64,000 nucleotides of DNA, from assembly GCA_027063065.1 (NCBI GenBank), contig JAMOSO010000012.1, positions 6,623 through 70,622 on the forward strand. Direction: 5' to 3'. The position numbers and the translations under genes were made by a program. The stretch comes from Planctomycetota bacterium. GTDB taxonomy: Bacteria > Planctomycetota > JAMOSO01. The notes below the pieces were generated by a model that saw nothing but the letters and a program-made list of their open reading frames with translations, was not told the origin of the DNA and made no database searches. Shown one piece after another: positions 11,711-20,011 of this stretch (within the stretch, counting starts at the first letter, position 1; each line of letters starts with the position of its first letter).

Positions 11711-14263
11711 ATGAAAATTAAATCCATATTATTAATATCGGCATTGATATGTACTAAGACTATTTATGCCAATCCCCAAATTACATTGTTAGAACATTTT
11801 AATAATACTAAAAACATTGCTGGCCAACAGGTGGTTACACCTGAATATCCAGACACTAAATTTGGCAAAATTAACGGTGATGTTAAATTTGTTGATACTC
11901 GTTTTGGTAAAGGCGTATTGTGTTCTACTTATAAAGATAATGTAACTTTTGGTGCAAAAGGTATTGTTAATCCAGCTAGGGGTACAGTTGAGGCGTGGAT
12001 TACACCGTCAGTTGATTTGGAAACAGTCAAAACTAATCAACAAGTATTTAAAATTAAATTTGATAACAATAATGCTATTTCATTGTATTATAACGCTAAG
12101 GATAATAATTTTGTTTTTTATATTGTTGATAAAGATGATCCCTCTAGTTATCACCATAGTAAGGGCTATCCCATTATCCAACCAACGGTTAAGGTGTTTT
12201 GGAAAAAAGGCCAATCTCATCATATTGCTGTAAGCTGGTCAGATAAGGTGCAATTTGTGTTTCTTGATGGCAAAATGGCATGTCATGCTTATTTTAATTG
12301 CGCTATTAAAACCAGTGTAACACAAAGTAGTAAGGTGTTTATTTCTGGAGAGGGTGGTGATAGTTGTTTTATTTTTGATGAATTTAGAATTTGGGACGAT
12401 GTTCGTGCCCCTAGAAAATTAGATGTTGCACCTGTCTATGTGGATACTAATTTTGATGCTAAAAACCCAACTTGCAAACGATGGTTAAATGCTAAAAATA
12501 TTAGTTTAGGTTTTAATAAAGATAATGCATTGCCTATGGCAATTAAACCTTTAAATTCTAAAACATCTTGGACCACAGGAGCCTCTTCGCTAGAAGCCGA
12601 TAAAAAGTTAAGCAAGATAATAACATGGTCTCAAAAAGACGGCGTAGCTATTTGTACTGTTAAATTTAACAATAAAACAGAAGCTGATATTACAACTGAT
12701 GTGGCGTTAAAATTTCCTATGTTAAAAGCCAGTGATATGGCTTTTATTCCTGTTGATGATGGTGTCTTTAAAGTTGGAACAGGACGCACTACTAAAGGTT
12801 ACATTAAAGGTGCTAGGTATGGCGTCAATGCAGCCTCTATCCCATTAATTAGTATTTACAGGCCAGAAATTGATGCTGGTTTGACAATCATTTCATCTCT
12901 TGATGATAAAAATGAAATCAAATGGGATTTGGGCGACGAAAATAAATCTAACATTTTAAGTATCACCCATAAAAAAATAAAAATACCAGCAGGTCAGTCT
13001 AAGCAGATGCAATGGATGTTTGCCGGTCATCAGGCAGATTGGCGTTGTGCCCTTGATGTTTATACTAAAATCTATCCAGGTATTTTGGTGCCACCCCAAG
13101 GTGCGGTTGCTAAAGGCGATCAGGGTATGGTTATTGGTGGGCGTTCTAACCGTGAATTTTTAAAAGAGTTAGTTGATTTAGGGGTAGGTTGGCGTGAAGT
13201 TTCTATGGATCATCTTGGCAAGGGTGCTAACGAAGAAGGTCGTTTGCCAATTGGTTTTGGTAATTATATTCCTGATGATTTAACTCCTTATCAACAAAAT
13301 ATAGAAGCCTTTAGGCAAAGCTTTGTCAATATGGATAAGGCAGGTATTGATGCTTTATTGTATATACAAGCTCGCGATTGCCAAAATTTAGAACAAGCAT
13401 TGAGGGACTTTCCAGATTCTGTGCAATATTATTCTAATGGCAAGCCTATGAATGGTGTCTTTGGTGCTACAATGACCTGCGAAAAAGGTTCTAAGTGGTA
13501 TTTGCACTTAATTGATCAGGCTAAGCGCCAAATGTCTGTTTTTCCAAATGCTGATGGGTTTTTCTTTGATAACTCTTGGAATCCAGAATTTGCTGATATC
13601 ATAGAAGCTATTGCAAAGGTAGCGCACGATGCAGGTCGTTCCATGACTACCAATGGTGCTAGTGCAAAATGTGTAGAGTTTTCTGATTCTATTATGGCAG
13701 AGACTCATTTAAGTCAGTTGGGTAATATGCAGTATTTGGGATTGGTTACGCCTATACATTATATCCCTATTTATATTGCAGGTGCTCCATTAGATGCTAA
13801 GCCACGTCATGGGGCTCCAGGTGTTATGCAAAATCTTAAGCGTGATTTAGGTGCTTGTTTGGTAAGAGGTGGCTTTTATAGTTTTAATTCTTTTGGCACC
13901 AAATATTGGTCGCAAAAATCAATAACTTACTTTAAGCAGTATTTGCCTTTGCAAAAAGCATTGTATGGGCGTAAGTGGGTTCTTTCGGCTCATGCTTTAG
14001 AGTTGCCAGATAAATTAAAGGGCAATGTATTTGAAGCAAGAGACGGGGCGTGGTTAGTTGCGTTGGCAAAAGATGCCTATGATGCTGGTGCAGCTGTGAT
14101 TAAAGTAAGAGTGCCAGATACGTCTAAAGTATTGCAACAGGTTTTAATTAGGAAAGTAGGTGAAAGCTGGGCGCCTATAGCTTTTAGCCAAATAGGTCAA
14201 GACATCACTATTAATTTAAAAGAAATTCCAGATTTAAGTTTGTTAAAGTTATATTGGCAGTAG
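11711..14263 (+). CDS. Secreted LamG plus TIM-barrel glycosidase-like protein
   Basis: An 850-aa protein with a signal peptide ending near IYANP. Residues about 22-235 are a LamG domain homologous to the preceding gene. A beta-rich linker follows to about residue 430. The last 400 residues look like a glycosidase-type TIM barrel: GVGWREVSMDHLG, IDALLYIQARDC, NADGFFFDNSWN, and SMTTNGASAKCVEFSDSIMAE, then a beta tail. Acidic residues at strand ends (DGFFFDN, MAE) are candidate catalytic groups. It may be an uncharacterised GH-type enzyme; I cannot assign a CAZy family. It ends the cluster. Confidence 0.72.
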   Translation: MKIKSILLISALICTKTIYANPQITLLEHFNNTKNIAGQQVVTPEYPDTKFGKINGDVKFVDTRFGKGVLCSTYKDNVTFGAKGIVNPARGTVEAWITPSVDLETVKTNQQVFKIKFDNNNAISLYYNAKDNNFVFYIVDKDDPSSYHHSKGYPIIQPTVKVFWKKGQSHHIAVSWSDKVQFVFLDGKMACHAYFNCAIKTSVTQSSKVFISGEGGDSCFIFDEFRIWDDVRAPRKLDVAPVYVDTNFDAKNPTCKRWLNAKNISLGFNKDNALPMAIKPLNSKTSWTTGASSLEADKKLSKIITWSQKDGVAICTVKFNNKTEADITTDVALKFPMLKASDMAFIPVDDGVFKVGTGRTTKGYIKGARYGVNAASIPLISIYRPEIDAGLTIISSLDDKNEIKWDLGDENKSNILSITHKKIKIPAGQSKQMQWMFAGHQADWRCALDVYTKIYPGILVPPQGAVAKGDQGMVIGGRSNREFLKELVDLGVGWREVSMDHLGKGANEEGRLPIGFGNYIPDDLTPYQQNIEAFRQSFVNMDKAGIDALLYIQARDCQNLEQALRDFPDSVQYYSNGKPMNGVFGATMTCEKGSKWYLHLIDQAKRQMSVFPNADGFFFDNSWNPEFADIIEAIAKVAHDAGRSMTTNGASAKCVEFSDSIMAETHLSQLGNMQYLGLVTPIHYIPIYIAGAPLDAKPRHGAPGVMQNLKRDLGACLVRGGFYSFNSFGTKYWSQKSITYFKQYLPLQKALYGRKWVLSAHALELPDKLKGNVFEARDGAWLVALAKDAYDAGAAVIKVRVPDTSKVLQQVLIRKVGESWAPIAFSQIGQDITINLKEIPDLSLLKLYWQ

Positions 14264-14322: not shown

Positions 14323-14460
14323 GTACAGATTGTTATAGTAATAGATAAAAAGACAGATGTGATAAAGTCTTTATTTGTCCGTTTGTTTATATATAATATA
14401 TATAACCTTATGGTTGTGTATGATGATTCTCAAAGGGAGAAGCTCGTGTTTTTAACAATG
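14323..14460 (+). promoter_or_regulatory. Leader region of the signalling cassette with an orphan ribosome site
   Basis: A very AT-rich stretch includes TATAAT at 14392-14397 without a good -35. At 14432-14440 there is a strong Shine-Dalgarno, AAAGGGAGA, 5 nt before GTG 14446. That GTG opens a 9-codon ORF (MFLTMCNNV) whose stop lies in the decamer array. The ribosome site therefore serves no long ORF at the present repeat number. Confidence 0.5.
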
Positions 14461-14580
14461 TGTAACAATGTGTAACAATGTGTAACAATGTGTAACAATG
14501 TGTAACAATGTGTAACAATGTGTAACAATGTGTAACAATGTGTAACAATGTGTAACAATGTGTAACAATGTGTAACAATG
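14451..14580 (+). repeat. Tandem array of the decamer TGTAACAATG, 12 exact copies plus one variant
   Basis: Copies run without interruption from 14461 to 14580, preceded by a variant TTTAACAATG at 14451-14460. The period of 10 bp is close to one helical turn and is not a multiple of three. Every unit carries an ATG opening a five-codon ORF (MCNNV) that ends in TAA 2 nt before a later ATG. The final copy contributes ATG 14578, in frame with the response regulator gene. There are no spacers, so it is not a CRISPR. Confidence 0.98.
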
Positions 14581-14589
14581 GGGTGTTAT

Positions 14590-15834
14590 ATGCAAAAAAA
14601 CATTACTATCTTATATGTTGAGGACGAAGATGTTATTCGTGAGAATACCAAACGTCCGCTTACGCGTTTGTGCGATACTTTAATAGTGGCTTCAGATGGT
14701 CAAGAGGGTTTAAATTTATATAAAAAATATCGTCCTGATATTGTAGTCTCGGACATCAAAATGCCAAATATGAATGGCATTGAAATGTGTAGGGCTATTA
14801 AAAATATCGATAAAGACCAACATATTGTTTTTACTACCGCCCATAGTGAATGCGGATATTTTATGGACGCCATTGATATGCAGATTGATTGTTATATTTT
14901 AAAGCCCATCGATTATGATTTGTTAGAAAACAAAGCAAATAAAATTATTGATACAATTAGTAATAAATACAAATTACGTCAACAAGAAATTTTAATAAAT
15001 GAAATAGCTAAATTACAAGATAATTTATTAATAGTCTTAGACTGTAAACAGAATATCGTGTTTTCTAATGATAGATTTTTACATTTTTTTGATGTAAATA
15101 CATTGGATGATTTTAAAGAAACATACAGTATATTAAGTTCTTTATTTATAGAAGGTGAAGATTTTTTTACTGCTTGTAATGAAAATTGGTTATTAGATTT
15201 GCAAAAACTACCTAAAAAAGAACAAGTGGTTTCTATTATGAATAAGGCCTTGGCTGAACCGCAAGTTTTTTTAGTGTCTGTCAAAGAAATATCAGAAACC
15301 TCTCATACTATTTTAATTTTAACTGAAATCACTCATATAGCTGATGAAACAAAAGAGTTAAAGCAAAAGGCTTTTACAGATGATTTGACATCTATTTATA
15401 ATCGAGCTTATTTTAATAAAATGCTCATCAAACAAATGCAGGATAATCAAGATTGTTTAAGTTTGATTTTATTGGACGTGGATAGATTTAAAGATTTTAA
15501 TGATGTTTATGGTCATCAGGTTGGTGATAAAGTGTTACAATCTTTAGCTTCTATTATTAATGCTAAAATCAGAACAGCGGATATATTTGCTAGGTGGGGT
15601 GGCGAAGAATTTACTATAATTTTATCTGATACTAATTTGGCAAATGCTTTAAAAGTTGCAGAAAATTTACGACAGACTATAGAAGAGTATATCTTTATAG
15701 GCGATTTAAAAGTAACTTGTAGTTTTGGTGTGGCGGAAGCTACCAAAGAAGATGTGCCAGATACCTTAATAAAACGAGCGGATGATGCATTATATCGGGC
15801 TAAAACTGGGGGGAGAAATAGGGTTGCCCAATAA
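14590..15834 (+). CDS. Response regulator diguanylate cyclase (REC-GGDEF)
   Basis: The N-terminal REC domain starts ITILYVEDED, with phospho-acceptor Asp55 in VVSDIKMPN and a typical switch Thr in VFTTAHSE. A PAS-like middle (about 130-250) is followed by a GGDEF domain with RWGGEEF near residues 335-341, so an active diguanylate cyclase making c-di-GMP is expected. ATG 14590 has GGGG just upstream; ATG 14578, inside the last repeat, would add MGCY. It is followed 20 bp later by the peroxidase fusion gene. The repeat array in front makes its translation a candidate for phase variation. Confidence 0.92.
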   Translation: MQKNITILYVEDEDVIRENTKRPLTRLCDTLIVASDGQEGLNLYKKYRPDIVVSDIKMPNMNGIEMCRAIKNIDKDQHIVFTTAHSECGYFMDAIDMQIDCYILKPIDYDLLENKANKIIDTISNKYKLRQQEILINEIAKLQDNLLIVLDCKQNIVFSNDRFLHFFDVNTLDDFKETYSILSSLFIEGEDFFTACNENWLLDLQKLPKKEQVVSIMNKALAEPQVFLVSVKEISETSHTILILTEITHIADETKELKQKAFTDDLTSIYNRAYFNKMLIKQMQDNQDCLSLILLDVDRFKDFNDVYGHQVGDKVLQSLASIINAKIRTADIFARWGGEEFTIILSDTNLANALKVAENLRQTIEEYIFIGDLKVTCSFGVAEATKEDVPDTLIKRADDALYRAKTGGRNRVAQ

Positions 15835-15854
15835 TAAATACAGCGGGAGGAAGT

Positions 15855-17678
15855 ATGCGTAAATTATTATTATGCTTATGTGTGGTAATTAATATCTGTG
15901 TTTGTGATTTTGTATATGCTATAAATCATAAAGTTTCGGTGCAGTTATTATGGAAACATCAATTTGAATTTGCGGGCATTTATGTAGCAAAAAATAAAGG
16001 TTTTTATCAAGAAGCTAATTTAGATGTGGATATAATACCTTTTGATGCCAATAGTGATATGGTGCAAAATGTATTGCAGCAAAAAATCACATTTGGCATA
16101 GGGTATCCCAGTATTATTTTACATGGCAATGATGTTGTTTTATTAAATGCTTTTTTTCAAAGCTCACCGCATATAATTGTTACGACAAATCCAAACATAA
16201 AAAACATTAAAGATTTTAAAAATAAAACTATTATGATTAATATGGATGCTGTTAAAATTGCTGCATTTGCAGGAATGTTATCCTCTGGAGGTATAACATT
16301 TGCTGATTTAAAAAAAGTTAAGCATCAATATAATTTAGATAGCATTATACATCATAAGGTAGATTTGATGCCTATGTATATGTCTAATGAGTTATACCTA
16401 TTAGATAAAAAAAACATATATTATAAAATTTTTGATCCACGTGATTTTGGTTTTGATTTTTATACGGATATTTTATTTACATCGCTTAATTTTGTCAAAC
16501 AGCACCCAAAAGAAGTCGCCGCATTTCAGAAAGCCACCATTAAAGGATGGTTATGGGCTTTTGAACATATTGAAGAATCTGTAGATTTAATTTTAAAATA
16601 TTATAATACCTCAAAAACTAAGGATGCATTATTGCATGAAGCACATGTGTTAAAAAATTTAGCCTTTTATAAGACAGAGGTTTTTGGACAGATTAAAGCT
16701 AGTAAACTCAAAGAAATTTATAATACATATTATATGCTAGATATAGTTAAAAAAGATTTAAATGTTCAAAAATTAATATTTGGTTTTGTATATCAAGAGC
16801 CAATAATACCTATCCCACAGCATATTGAGTATAATGTTCAAAAGGCCAAATTAGGTAAAAATTTATTTTTTGATACACGATTAAGTGCCGATAATACGGT
16901 TAGTTGTGCTACTTGTCATGTTATTGAAGAGGGTGGAGATGATAATGCTCAATTTTCTACTGGTATAAAAGGTAGTTTAGGCCATATCAATTCGCCAACA
17001 GTATTAAACGCTAGATACAATATAGCGCAATTTTGGGATGGCAGAGCAAAAGACTTAAAAGAACAGGTTAAAGGACCAATAGAAAACCCTGTAGAAATGG
17101 GACATTCTTTAGAAGGCGTCGAACAGGTTTTAAAACGTGACCATAAATTACTTAATGAATTTAACCATATATATACTACAGATTTGACACAAGAGAATAT
17201 TATGGATGCCATAGCTGAGTTTGAAAAAACTTTAATTACACCTAATTGTCAATTTGATAAATATTTACGCGGTGACAAAACTGCTATTACAAAATATGCC
17301 CAAGATGGTTATAACTTATTTAAAAAATACGGTTGTATTAATTGTCATAATGGGATTAATATAGGTGGTAATTTATTTCAAAAAGTTGGTATTTATCCTA
17401 AGTTTTCAACAGAAGTACATAATTTAGGTATGACATCATTGGCTGGAAATCTGGTTGATAAGTTTTATTTTAAAGTTCCTTCTTTAAGAAATATTTGTAA
17501 AACAGCACCTTATTTTCATACAGGTGATATTAATAGTTTAGAACGAGCAGTAAAAATTATTAGTTATATGCAATTAGGAATAGTTTTGAGTCAAAGGGAT
17601 ACTGATAAAATAATGAGTTTTTTGCAATCGTTAGATGGTGAATATCCTGAATTTATGAAAGCTCAAACATGCGAATAA
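15855..17678 (+). CDS. NMT1/THI5-like binding domain fused to di-heme cytochrome c peroxidase
   Basis: A 607-aa exported protein with a signal peptide ending near FVYA. Residues about 25-300 are an NMT1/THI5-like periplasmic substrate-binding domain (VQLLWKHQFEFAGIYVAKNKGFY, KTIMINMDA, ATIKGWLWAF). Residues about 315-600 are a MauG/CcpA di-heme peroxidase: CATCH at 351-355 and CINCH at 494-498, NSPTVLNARYNIAQFWDGRA, GPIENPVEMG and KVPSLRNICKTAPYFHTG. It should bind a small ligand and two c-type haems in the periplasm. GGGAGGAAG precedes the start. Its 3' end overlaps the kinase gene by 10 bp, so the pair is probably one sensing unit. The fusion is not one I recall as common. Confidence 0.88.
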   Translation: MRKLLLCLCVVINICVCDFVYAINHKVSVQLLWKHQFEFAGIYVAKNKGFYQEANLDVDIIPFDANSDMVQNVLQQKITFGIGYPSIILHGNDVVLLNAFFQSSPHIIVTTNPNIKNIKDFKNKTIMINMDAVKIAAFAGMLSSGGITFADLKKVKHQYNLDSIIHHKVDLMPMYMSNELYLLDKKNIYYKIFDPRDFGFDFYTDILFTSLNFVKQHPKEVAAFQKATIKGWLWAFEHIEESVDLILKYYNTSKTKDALLHEAHVLKNLAFYKTEVFGQIKASKLKEIYNTYYMLDIVKKDLNVQKLIFGFVYQEPIIPIPQHIEYNVQKAKLGKNLFFDTRLSADNTVSCATCHVIEEGGDDNAQFSTGIKGSLGHINSPTVLNARYNIAQFWDGRAKDLKEQVKGPIENPVEMGHSLEGVEQVLKRDHKLLNEFNHIYTTDLTQENIMDAIAEFEKTLITPNCQFDKYLRGDKTAITKYAQDGYNLFKKYGCINCHNGINIGGNLFQKVGIYPKFSTEVHNLGMTSLAGNLVDKFYFKVPSLRNICKTAPYFHTGDINSLERAVKIISYMQLGIVLSQRDTDKIMSFLQSLDGEYPEFMKAQTCE

Positions 17679-20011
17679 TATTATTAATACTTGTATCTAT
17701 TTGTGCAGGTTGTACAAGTACTAATGTTGATTTGGAGTCTCTTCAAGAAAAGTTATTAATTGAAAATCAATATATTGACAATATCGCTAGTGATATATTG
17801 TGTATAGAAAATTTGGACAAAATTAATGCTCGTATTAGTAAAATAGAGTCTATTTTAGACGATCCAAGCTTAGCTGAGATTAAAAATTTTGAACAATTAA
17901 AAAAAGAATTTAAGTTAAAAATAAAATTATTACAAAGAATCATTTCTTATGGTGCTATATGTTGTAATTCTTTAGATTATGTTCGTTTACATAAAAATGA
18001 TAGCACTTATCGAATCATAAATATTAAAAGTGTAAATATTGATAATGAATTAACAAAGTTATATAAATTACCTTATAATACTATTAATAGTAATATGTTG
18101 CATAAACATTACATTATCTTATTAAAGCATTATAAAGACTATAAATATTTGTTAAATAAATCTAATAAGCTAGATATTAAAAGTTTAATATATAAACTAC
18201 ATTATCCAAATCCAAATTATTCTTTTATATATACTATTTGTATAATTGTTTTTTTATTAGCTATTATCATATTTGTTTTATATAAAATAAATCGTAGCAA
18301 TATGCGATGTGCAGTAATTTTATTAATTAGTTTTTTACTATTAATTTTTATTGTTTATCACAGTTTAAAATATAACTATCACCAAAGAGAGCTCGTATAT
18401 AAGCAACGTTATTTAGATAATGCCTTAAATAATTGTAAAGTTATAGAAAATACTAATAAGATTATGGCACAATTAATTTTTGATGGTTATATCAATAAGC
18501 CAATTATTAAACAATTATTTAAAAAACAGGATAGATTAGGGCTTTATAATTATTTAAAAAGTGATTATGAGAAATTAAAAAATAAATATTCTATTTTTGT
18601 TATACAGTTCCACTTGCGAGATACTACAAGTTTTTTAAGAATGAATGATCCAGGTAGATTTGGCGATCAATTAGGTAATATTAGGGAAAGTGTTAATTAT
18701 GTTAATAATACTTTTAAAACTTATTCTGGTTATGAAGTTGGTAGAATAAAAGGCGCTTTTAGAAATGTATTTGCGCTTACTGACAATAAAGATTGTTTAG
18801 GCAGTGTAGAAATTAGTTTTTCGGTTAATTTTTTTATTCGCCAATATTTAAGCAATCATAAAGATACAAAAATTAATTTTTTAATTAATGGCAATAACTT
18901 ATTACCCTCTGTCAAAAATTATTTTAAACCATCATCAATTGATGGTTTCTTTTATGATAAATCAGTTTTAAATGATTCACAGGATAAAAATGTTCTACAA
19001 ACAAATAAACATAAAAGACAGGAGAACTTAAAATTAATTTCTAAAAAAATTAAACTAGGCAAACCTTTTGTTGTTTATTTTTCAAACGTACAAGAATTAG
19101 TTGCTATTATTCCTATTAAAGACAAATTTACAAATCAGGTAGTATCTGTAATACAGATAGACAATATAGATAAAGAAATTGGTATTTTAAAACAGGAATT
19201 TTATAGGATGTTATTGGTTGTAATTTCAGCAATTTTTATTTTATTTTTATTTATTTATAAACAAATTGTAGCTAAATATAATTTAGAGATTAAAATTGAT
19301 AAAGCTTTGTATGAAAACACTAAACATTTGCAGGCTTTACAGCATCAGTCAAAATTGGCGCAAATGGGCGAAATGATAGGTGCAATTGCACATCAATGGC
19401 GACAACCTTTAAATGCCATTAGCACATCTATTCAAAATTTAAAATATGATTATCAAGATGGCTATTTACAAGATAAAAAATTTATTCATAAATTTATCGA
19501 GACAAATAAAACGACAATTAAATTTATGAGTAAAACAATAGATGATTTTAGAAGTTTTTTTAGGGTAGATAAACAAAAGTATCATTTTCAAATTAAAGAA
19601 GCTACACAATCTGTGATTAATATGCAATCGACACAGTTGTCTAATAATGGTATTATAATTAGTTTAGATGGGGATGACTTTAGTTTTTATGGTTTTCCGG
19701 GAGAGTATCAACAAGTTATATTAAATATAATTAATAACGCCAAGGACGCTTTAATAGATAAAACAACAGCTAGGTTATTAATTAAGATTACTATACAAGA
19801 CAAGAAAATTATGATTAAAGATAATGCCGGAGGTATACCTAAGCATATTATTAATAGAATATTTGAGCCTTATTTTACAACTAAAGAACAAGGAAAAGGC
19901 ACAGGTATGGGCTTATATATGTCTAAAATGATAGTAGAAGATAATATGGGTGGTAAATTAACAGTGTATAATGAACAAGACGGGGCGTGTTTTTGTATAG
20001 ATTTTTCTTAA
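17669..20011 (+). CDS. Membrane sensor histidine kinase with Cache-type periplasmic domain
   Basis: A 780-aa kinase. The N-terminus has a lipoprotein-like signal (ISICAGC region, Cys near 15) and an extracytoplasmic helical part to about 185. Two membrane segments (about 190-210 and 213-235) then precede a second extracytoplasmic domain resembling dCache_3 (FVIQFHLRDTTSFLRMNDPG, FGDQLGNIRESV). A third membrane segment near 515-535 leads to the kinase core: H575 in IAHQWRQPLNAIS, NIINNAKDAL, KDNAGGIP and GKGTGMGLYMS. The HQWRQPLN box is typical of Campylobacterota and some Deltaproteobacteria-type kinases. Overlap with the peroxidase fusion and the GGDEF regulator two genes upstream suggest a cognate set. 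Confidence 0.88.
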   Translation: MRIILLILVSICAGCTSTNVDLESLQEKLLIENQYIDNIASDILCIENLDKINARISKIESILDDPSLAEIKNFEQLKKEFKLKIKLLQRIISYGAICCNSLDYVRLHKNDSTYRIINIKSVNIDNELTKLYKLPYNTINSNMLHKHYIILLKHYKDYKYLLNKSNKLDIKSLIYKLHYPNPNYSFIYTICIIVFLLAIIIFVLYKINRSNMRCAVILLISFLLLIFIVYHSLKYNYHQRELVYKQRYLDNALNNCKVIENTNKIMAQLIFDGYINKPIIKQLFKKQDRLGLYNYLKSDYEKLKNKYSIFVIQFHLRDTTSFLRMNDPGRFGDQLGNIRESVNYVNNTFKTYSGYEVGRIKGAFRNVFALTDNKDCLGSVEISFSVNFFIRQYLSNHKDTKINFLINGNNLLPSVKNYFKPSSIDGFFYDKSVLNDSQDKNVLQTNKHKRQENLKLISKKIKLGKPFVVYFSNVQELVAIIPIKDKFTNQVVSVIQIDNIDKEIGILKQEFYRMLLVVISAIFILFLFIYKQIVAKYNLEIKIDKALYENTKHLQALQHQSKLAQMGEMIGAIAHQWRQPLNAISTSIQNLKYDYQDGYLQDKKFIHKFIETNKTTIKFMSKTIDDFRSFFRVDKQKYHFQIKEATQSVINMQSTQLSNNGIIISLDGDDFSFYGFPGEYQQVILNIINNAKDALIDKTTARLLIKITIQDKKIMIKDNAGGIPKHIINRIFEPYFTTKEQGKGTGMGLYMSKMIVEDNMGGKLTVYNEQDGACFCIDFS

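Follow-up and report, generated by a model that had tools for sequence, protein, structure and literature searches.

A perfect tandem array of a 10-bp unit sits in the leader of a REC-GGDEF diguanylate cyclase gene within the window, the 64,000-nucleotide stretch of DNA analyzed here. Judged from its sequence, an array of 13 such units could plausibly be a hot spot for slippage, and an effect on expression is possible because the array lies in the leader. The reading we favor, tentatively and at somewhat under even confidence, is that this leader repeat is prone to slippage and affects the cyclase, if at all, in a graded way; neutral expansion is the nearest competitor.

TRF resolved the array as 12.8 copies of TAACAATGTG on the forward strand (14453..14580), with a period of 10, 100% matches, no indels and a score of 256, versus a score of 50 for the next best array in the 64-kb window. 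The earlier note had read the same repeat in another phase, as 12 identical units of TGTAACAATG (14461-14580) and one variant, TTTAACAATG (14451-14460), and TRF bears out this description; when phased as TAACAATGTG, the variant becomes the final unit, TAACAATGGG, and its inclusion gives 13 units, a copy number taken from one draft assembly in 71 contigs that could be off if the reads were short. The longest perfect self-match at periods of 4 to 30 spans 118 bases at the array versus 16 in the remaining window, and reached 11–16 bases in ten Markov-shuffled windows; the array is far beyond chance. Its length and perfection (12.8 copies, 100% match) are those of the long, near-perfect repeat that marks an SSR/VNTR contingency locus. 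A whole-genome pattern search placed the unit pair at the array locus only, and the runner-up across 387 kb of the same genome, window included, has 4.2 copies. This second-best array in the genome sample consists of perfect copies of AAGGCATTGAGC with a period of 12 (L075:8810-8860). The array was not found in 391 other genomes of the phylum or in about 400 genomes from the order of the closest relatives; two weak matches there, each with 2 mismatches, are not arrays, and the backward control matches too. The decamer is itself a mirror repeat, and the backward-read control is uninformative for the array because the reversed unit is a rotation of the unit and yields equal counts. Searches found no exact match to the array in viruses and no known RNA family in the window.

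The array lies upstream of the start codon and between two strong Shine-Dalgarno (SD) sequences on the forward strand. Upstream, the SD-like AAAGGGAG (14432..14439) ends 6 nt before GTG14446 and has a duplex energy of −8.4 kcal/mol, stronger than in 88% of 43 window genes; downstream, the SD-like GGGGTG (14580..14585) ends 4 nt before ATG14590 and has a duplex energy of −8.6 kcal/mol, stronger than in 91% of the same set. The canonical anti-SD applies in both cases because the 16S gene of this genome ends in GGATCACCTCCTTTCT. GTG14446 opens a putative leader ORF of nine codons (VFLTMCNNV*; 14446..14475, forward strand) that runs to a TAA in the third unit. The array ends at the start of the REC-GGDEF gene, as had been described, and Pfam confirms the gene's identity (Response_reg E=3.3e-23, GGDEF E=2.3e-44). 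ATG14578, initially taken as the gene start, lies in the last unit in frame with ATG14590 and has no SD, and the ATGs within the array likewise lack one. Homologue alignments begin at about residue 5–7 of the longer, 418-aa reading, which points to ATG14590; together, Pfam, these alignments and the SD energies make ATG14590 the better supported and likely start of the cyclase (14590..15834, forward strand). A possible −10 box, TATAAT, can be read by eye upstream of the array (14392..14397, forward strand), and a promoter scan returned no more sites than expected by chance.

Copy number could act through several properties of this leader, and the earlier note had proposed three: reading frame, distance to the ribosome site, and the face of the DNA. 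None of them holds for this locus. The array ends at or before the start codon, and no ORF can cross three or more units because TAA occurs in all three forward frames; the ORF from GTG14446 is the 9-codon VFLTMCNNV* at any copy number of at least 3, extends to 21 codons with two units, and opens into a 422-codon fusion in frame with the cyclase only with exactly one unit. A translational frame-switch repeat, which would lie within an ORF, is rejected on these stops and on the restriction of the fusion to one unit. The one-unit allele is possibly ancestral, which is only suggestive, as an open in-frame join is not unlikely by chance. Neither SD–start spacing changes with copy number because each SD adjoins its own start outside the array, that of GTG14446 upstream and that of ATG14590 downstream. 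Each additional 10 bp rotates the helix by about −17 degrees at 10.5 bp per turn, and the face is kept. What stands of the earlier interpretation is its broader part, a plausible slippage hot spot with a possible leader effect.

Predicted leader folding energy grows steadily as copies are added, from −31.5 at 1–3 units to −57.8 at 13, and the predicted accessibility of both SDs is nearly constant from 5 units upward. Folding of the leader RNA is not stronger than that of shuffled sequences (z=−0.07), and single-stranded DNA folding is weaker than that of shuffles; a special RNA or DNA structure was rejected on these values. Read on the minus strand, the array has no stop in any of the three frames and would encode the repeat peptide HCYTLLHIVT. 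The minus-strand ORFs across the array have 42–56 codons, consist mostly of repeat and are probably meaningless, and an antisense gene was discarded as a candidate.

The cyclase gene heads a cluster that is probably foreign. Upstream of the array lies a gene encoding a LamG-like domain, with its end at 14263, and the cyclase is followed on the forward strand by a gene for an NMT1/THI5-like domain fused to a CCP_MauG di-haem peroxidase (15855..17678) and by a histidine kinase gene (17669..20011; HisKA, HATPase_c and a weak dCache_3 in Pfam) whose product is the likely partner of the REC-GGDEF protein. The style of the prepilin and LamG/GH31 genes may point to a Lentisphaera-like lineage for the source organism. 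In the family of a Campylobacteraceae MAG, the REC-GGDEF protein has full-length matches with up to 49% identity and 438 bits; those in 58 further genomes of the phylum to which the window belongs score at most 133 bits and mostly cover the GGDEF domain alone. In a GGDEF-domain tree the window cyclase nests within a Campylobacterota group (support 95/87), a histidine kinase like that of the window adjoins REC-GGDEF in most Campylobacterota homologues, and one relative MAG has the gene order REC-GGDEF followed by an NMT1-kinase, in which the NMT1 domain is fused to the histidine kinase. Within the groups sampled, the homologue matches, the tree and the adjoining kinases point to Campylobacterota as the most likely source of the three-gene cluster (14590-20011), which would be a two-component c-di-GMP module gained by transfer. 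Among the matches listed for the NMT1–CCP_MauG fusion in 100 sampled genomes of the Campylobacteraceae family, each covers one half or the other in separate proteins, with no fused ORF. The REC-GGDEF query matches at least 31 times in the same 2.1-Mb genome as the window, a high c-di-GMP signaling load. The array was not found upstream of homologous loci in the relatives examined and, as these relatives carry none, the probable course is that it formed after the transfer or that they lost it; its absence from all homologous loci examined also indicates that it is not a conserved regulator.

Under the favored explanation, a recent expansion produced this tandem repeat (VNTR/SSR) in what would be the untranslated leader of the acquired REC-GGDEF/NMT1-peroxidase/histidine-kinase cluster. 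A repeat this perfect implies that slippage is recent or still ongoing, and for this reason the number of copies probably varies among cells and strains. Transcription would run through the array, with initiation of the nine-codon leader ORF, which stops in unit 3, predicted at the upstream SD and initiation of the cyclase at the downstream SD. Given the position of the array between the two SDs, a change in copy number would alter leader length, structure, stability and ribosome traffic between them, and would leave the frame of the gene intact. The array, if it has an effect, would then be a tuner that grades cyclase translation or the mRNA level and not a frame on/off switch. The downstream SD makes the cyclase gene locally independent of the array, which counts against such a tuner.

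Neutral slippage, a chance recent expansion in a tolerant intergenic leader without effect on the gene, is the rival to which we give the most weight, as a less probable but serious account. It draws support from an array that is single in the genome, has no counterpart in relatives and shows no unusual structure, and from a cyclase gene with its own SD, but it has to accommodate a very long and perfect array that sits exactly between two SDs in a genome with hardly any other such arrays (387 kb scanned). Recognition of in-phase direct repeats by OmpR-type response regulators fits a 10-bp period, and the array could present tandem 10-bp sites for such a regulator (GTAACA-N4-GTAACA) or for an RNA-binding protein. 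Its forward orientation in a leader is like that of TAACTGA repeat sets, for which an RNA-binding-protein role has been suggested (PMC4679880). This protein-binding account is nonetheless unlikely: GTAACA-N4-GTAACA occurs at only 7 places in the genome outside the array with at most 1 mismatch and is not enriched, and it would be unusual for a regulator to have only one target array. An OmpR-type tandem operator, with its direct repeat at other promoters, was likewise set aside on the lack of enrichment elsewhere in the genome.

Every unit also carries TAA-CA-ATG, with a TAA stop 5 nt ahead of an ATG start, and ribosomes from GTG14446 could in principle terminate at such a TAA, reinitiate and advance by two units per round, arriving in frame at ATG14578 with odd copy numbers and passing the gene start out of frame with even ones. 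Simulated chains do reach the gene at n = 3, 5, ... 15 and miss it at even n, and the assembled copy number, 13, is odd; yet an odd number in one assembly is no evidence, six successive SD-less restarts would be very inefficient, and ATG14590 has its own competing SD. Such a stop–restart relay is quite improbable, and we give slightly less credence still to its full form, in which the copy-number parity of these minicistrons decides whether ribosomes from the upstream SD are delivered in frame to the cyclase. If it were true, a non-coding array within an operon from another phylum would, through its slippage, determine c-di-GMP synthesis. Least probable of all is an assembly effect, in which the draft gives a collapsed count of a truly longer or mixed array. 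The draft genome in 71 contigs was probably built from short reads, and MacGregor describes assembly trouble at long repeat arrays (PMC4679880), but common read lengths suffice to span 128 bp, the flanks are clean on both sides, and an assembly effect would alter the count of the array and not its existence.

If the array of the favored leader-repeat reading varies and affects expression, repeat slippage would exert control on c-di-GMP synthesis in an uncultured lineage, and a recently acquired regulatory cluster would have been fitted with a hypermutable leader. The cases of c-di-GMP phase variation named in a review involve promoter inversion or epigenetic switching of a fimbrial operon (PMC11868660), and no paper on repeat-controlled diguanylate cyclases was found in the literature collection searched. 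Among the cases cited in that review, the Clostridioides difficile pdcB and pdcC genes encode c-di-GMP phosphodiesterases made phase-variable by site-specific promoter inversion. They share with the window locus a c-di-GMP turnover gene with an upstream element, which here is a candidate for hypervariability, and differ in that the element here is a tandem repeat and the gene encodes a diguanylate cyclase.

Tandem repeats in leaders have experimental precedents at surface-protein genes. In Moraxella catarrhalis, AGAT repeats in the 5′ UTR of uspA2 range from 6 to 23 copies with peak expression at 18, as cited in PMC4679880. As cited there, uspA2 resembles the window locus in that its tandem repeat lies within the leader, ahead of the start codon, and acts in a graded manner and not as a frame switch, an action that is only proposed here; its unit is 4 bp, its product is a surface protein, and both variability and expression changes have been demonstrated, whereas the 10-bp array before a c-di-GMP gene is known from DNA sequence. 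Upstream of Haemophilus influenzae hmw1A, more copies of a 7-bp ATCTTTC repeat give less transcript and protein (PMC8262952). That repeat, too, is not a multiple of three and lies between promoter and gene, although the promoter in the window is only a candidate, and the hmw1A array is part of the 5′ UTR in transcripts from the active P2 promoter; in contrast, the hmw1A array overlaps promoter elements, serves a surface adhesin and has a demonstrated copy-number effect (PMC8262952). The intergenic TAACTGA repeats of Beggiatoaceae, Cyanobacteria and Bacteroidetes likewise begin with TAA, have stops in all three forward frames and stand in forward orientation directly before start codons, but they have a 7-bp unit of other sequence, number 169 sets in one genome and are usually SD-less (PMC4679880), whereas the window holds one 10-bp set with SDs present. 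Membership in the TAACTGA network was rejected, given the unit TAACAATGTG with a period of 10 and not 7 and the single array in the genome. The uspA2 and hmw1A repeats are the closest experimental precedents and the TAACTGA repeats the closest in sequence layout, and by this comparison the decamer array appears to belong to a known kind, the 5′-leader tandem repeats, placed here before a c-di-GMP gene as a candidate only for phase variation.
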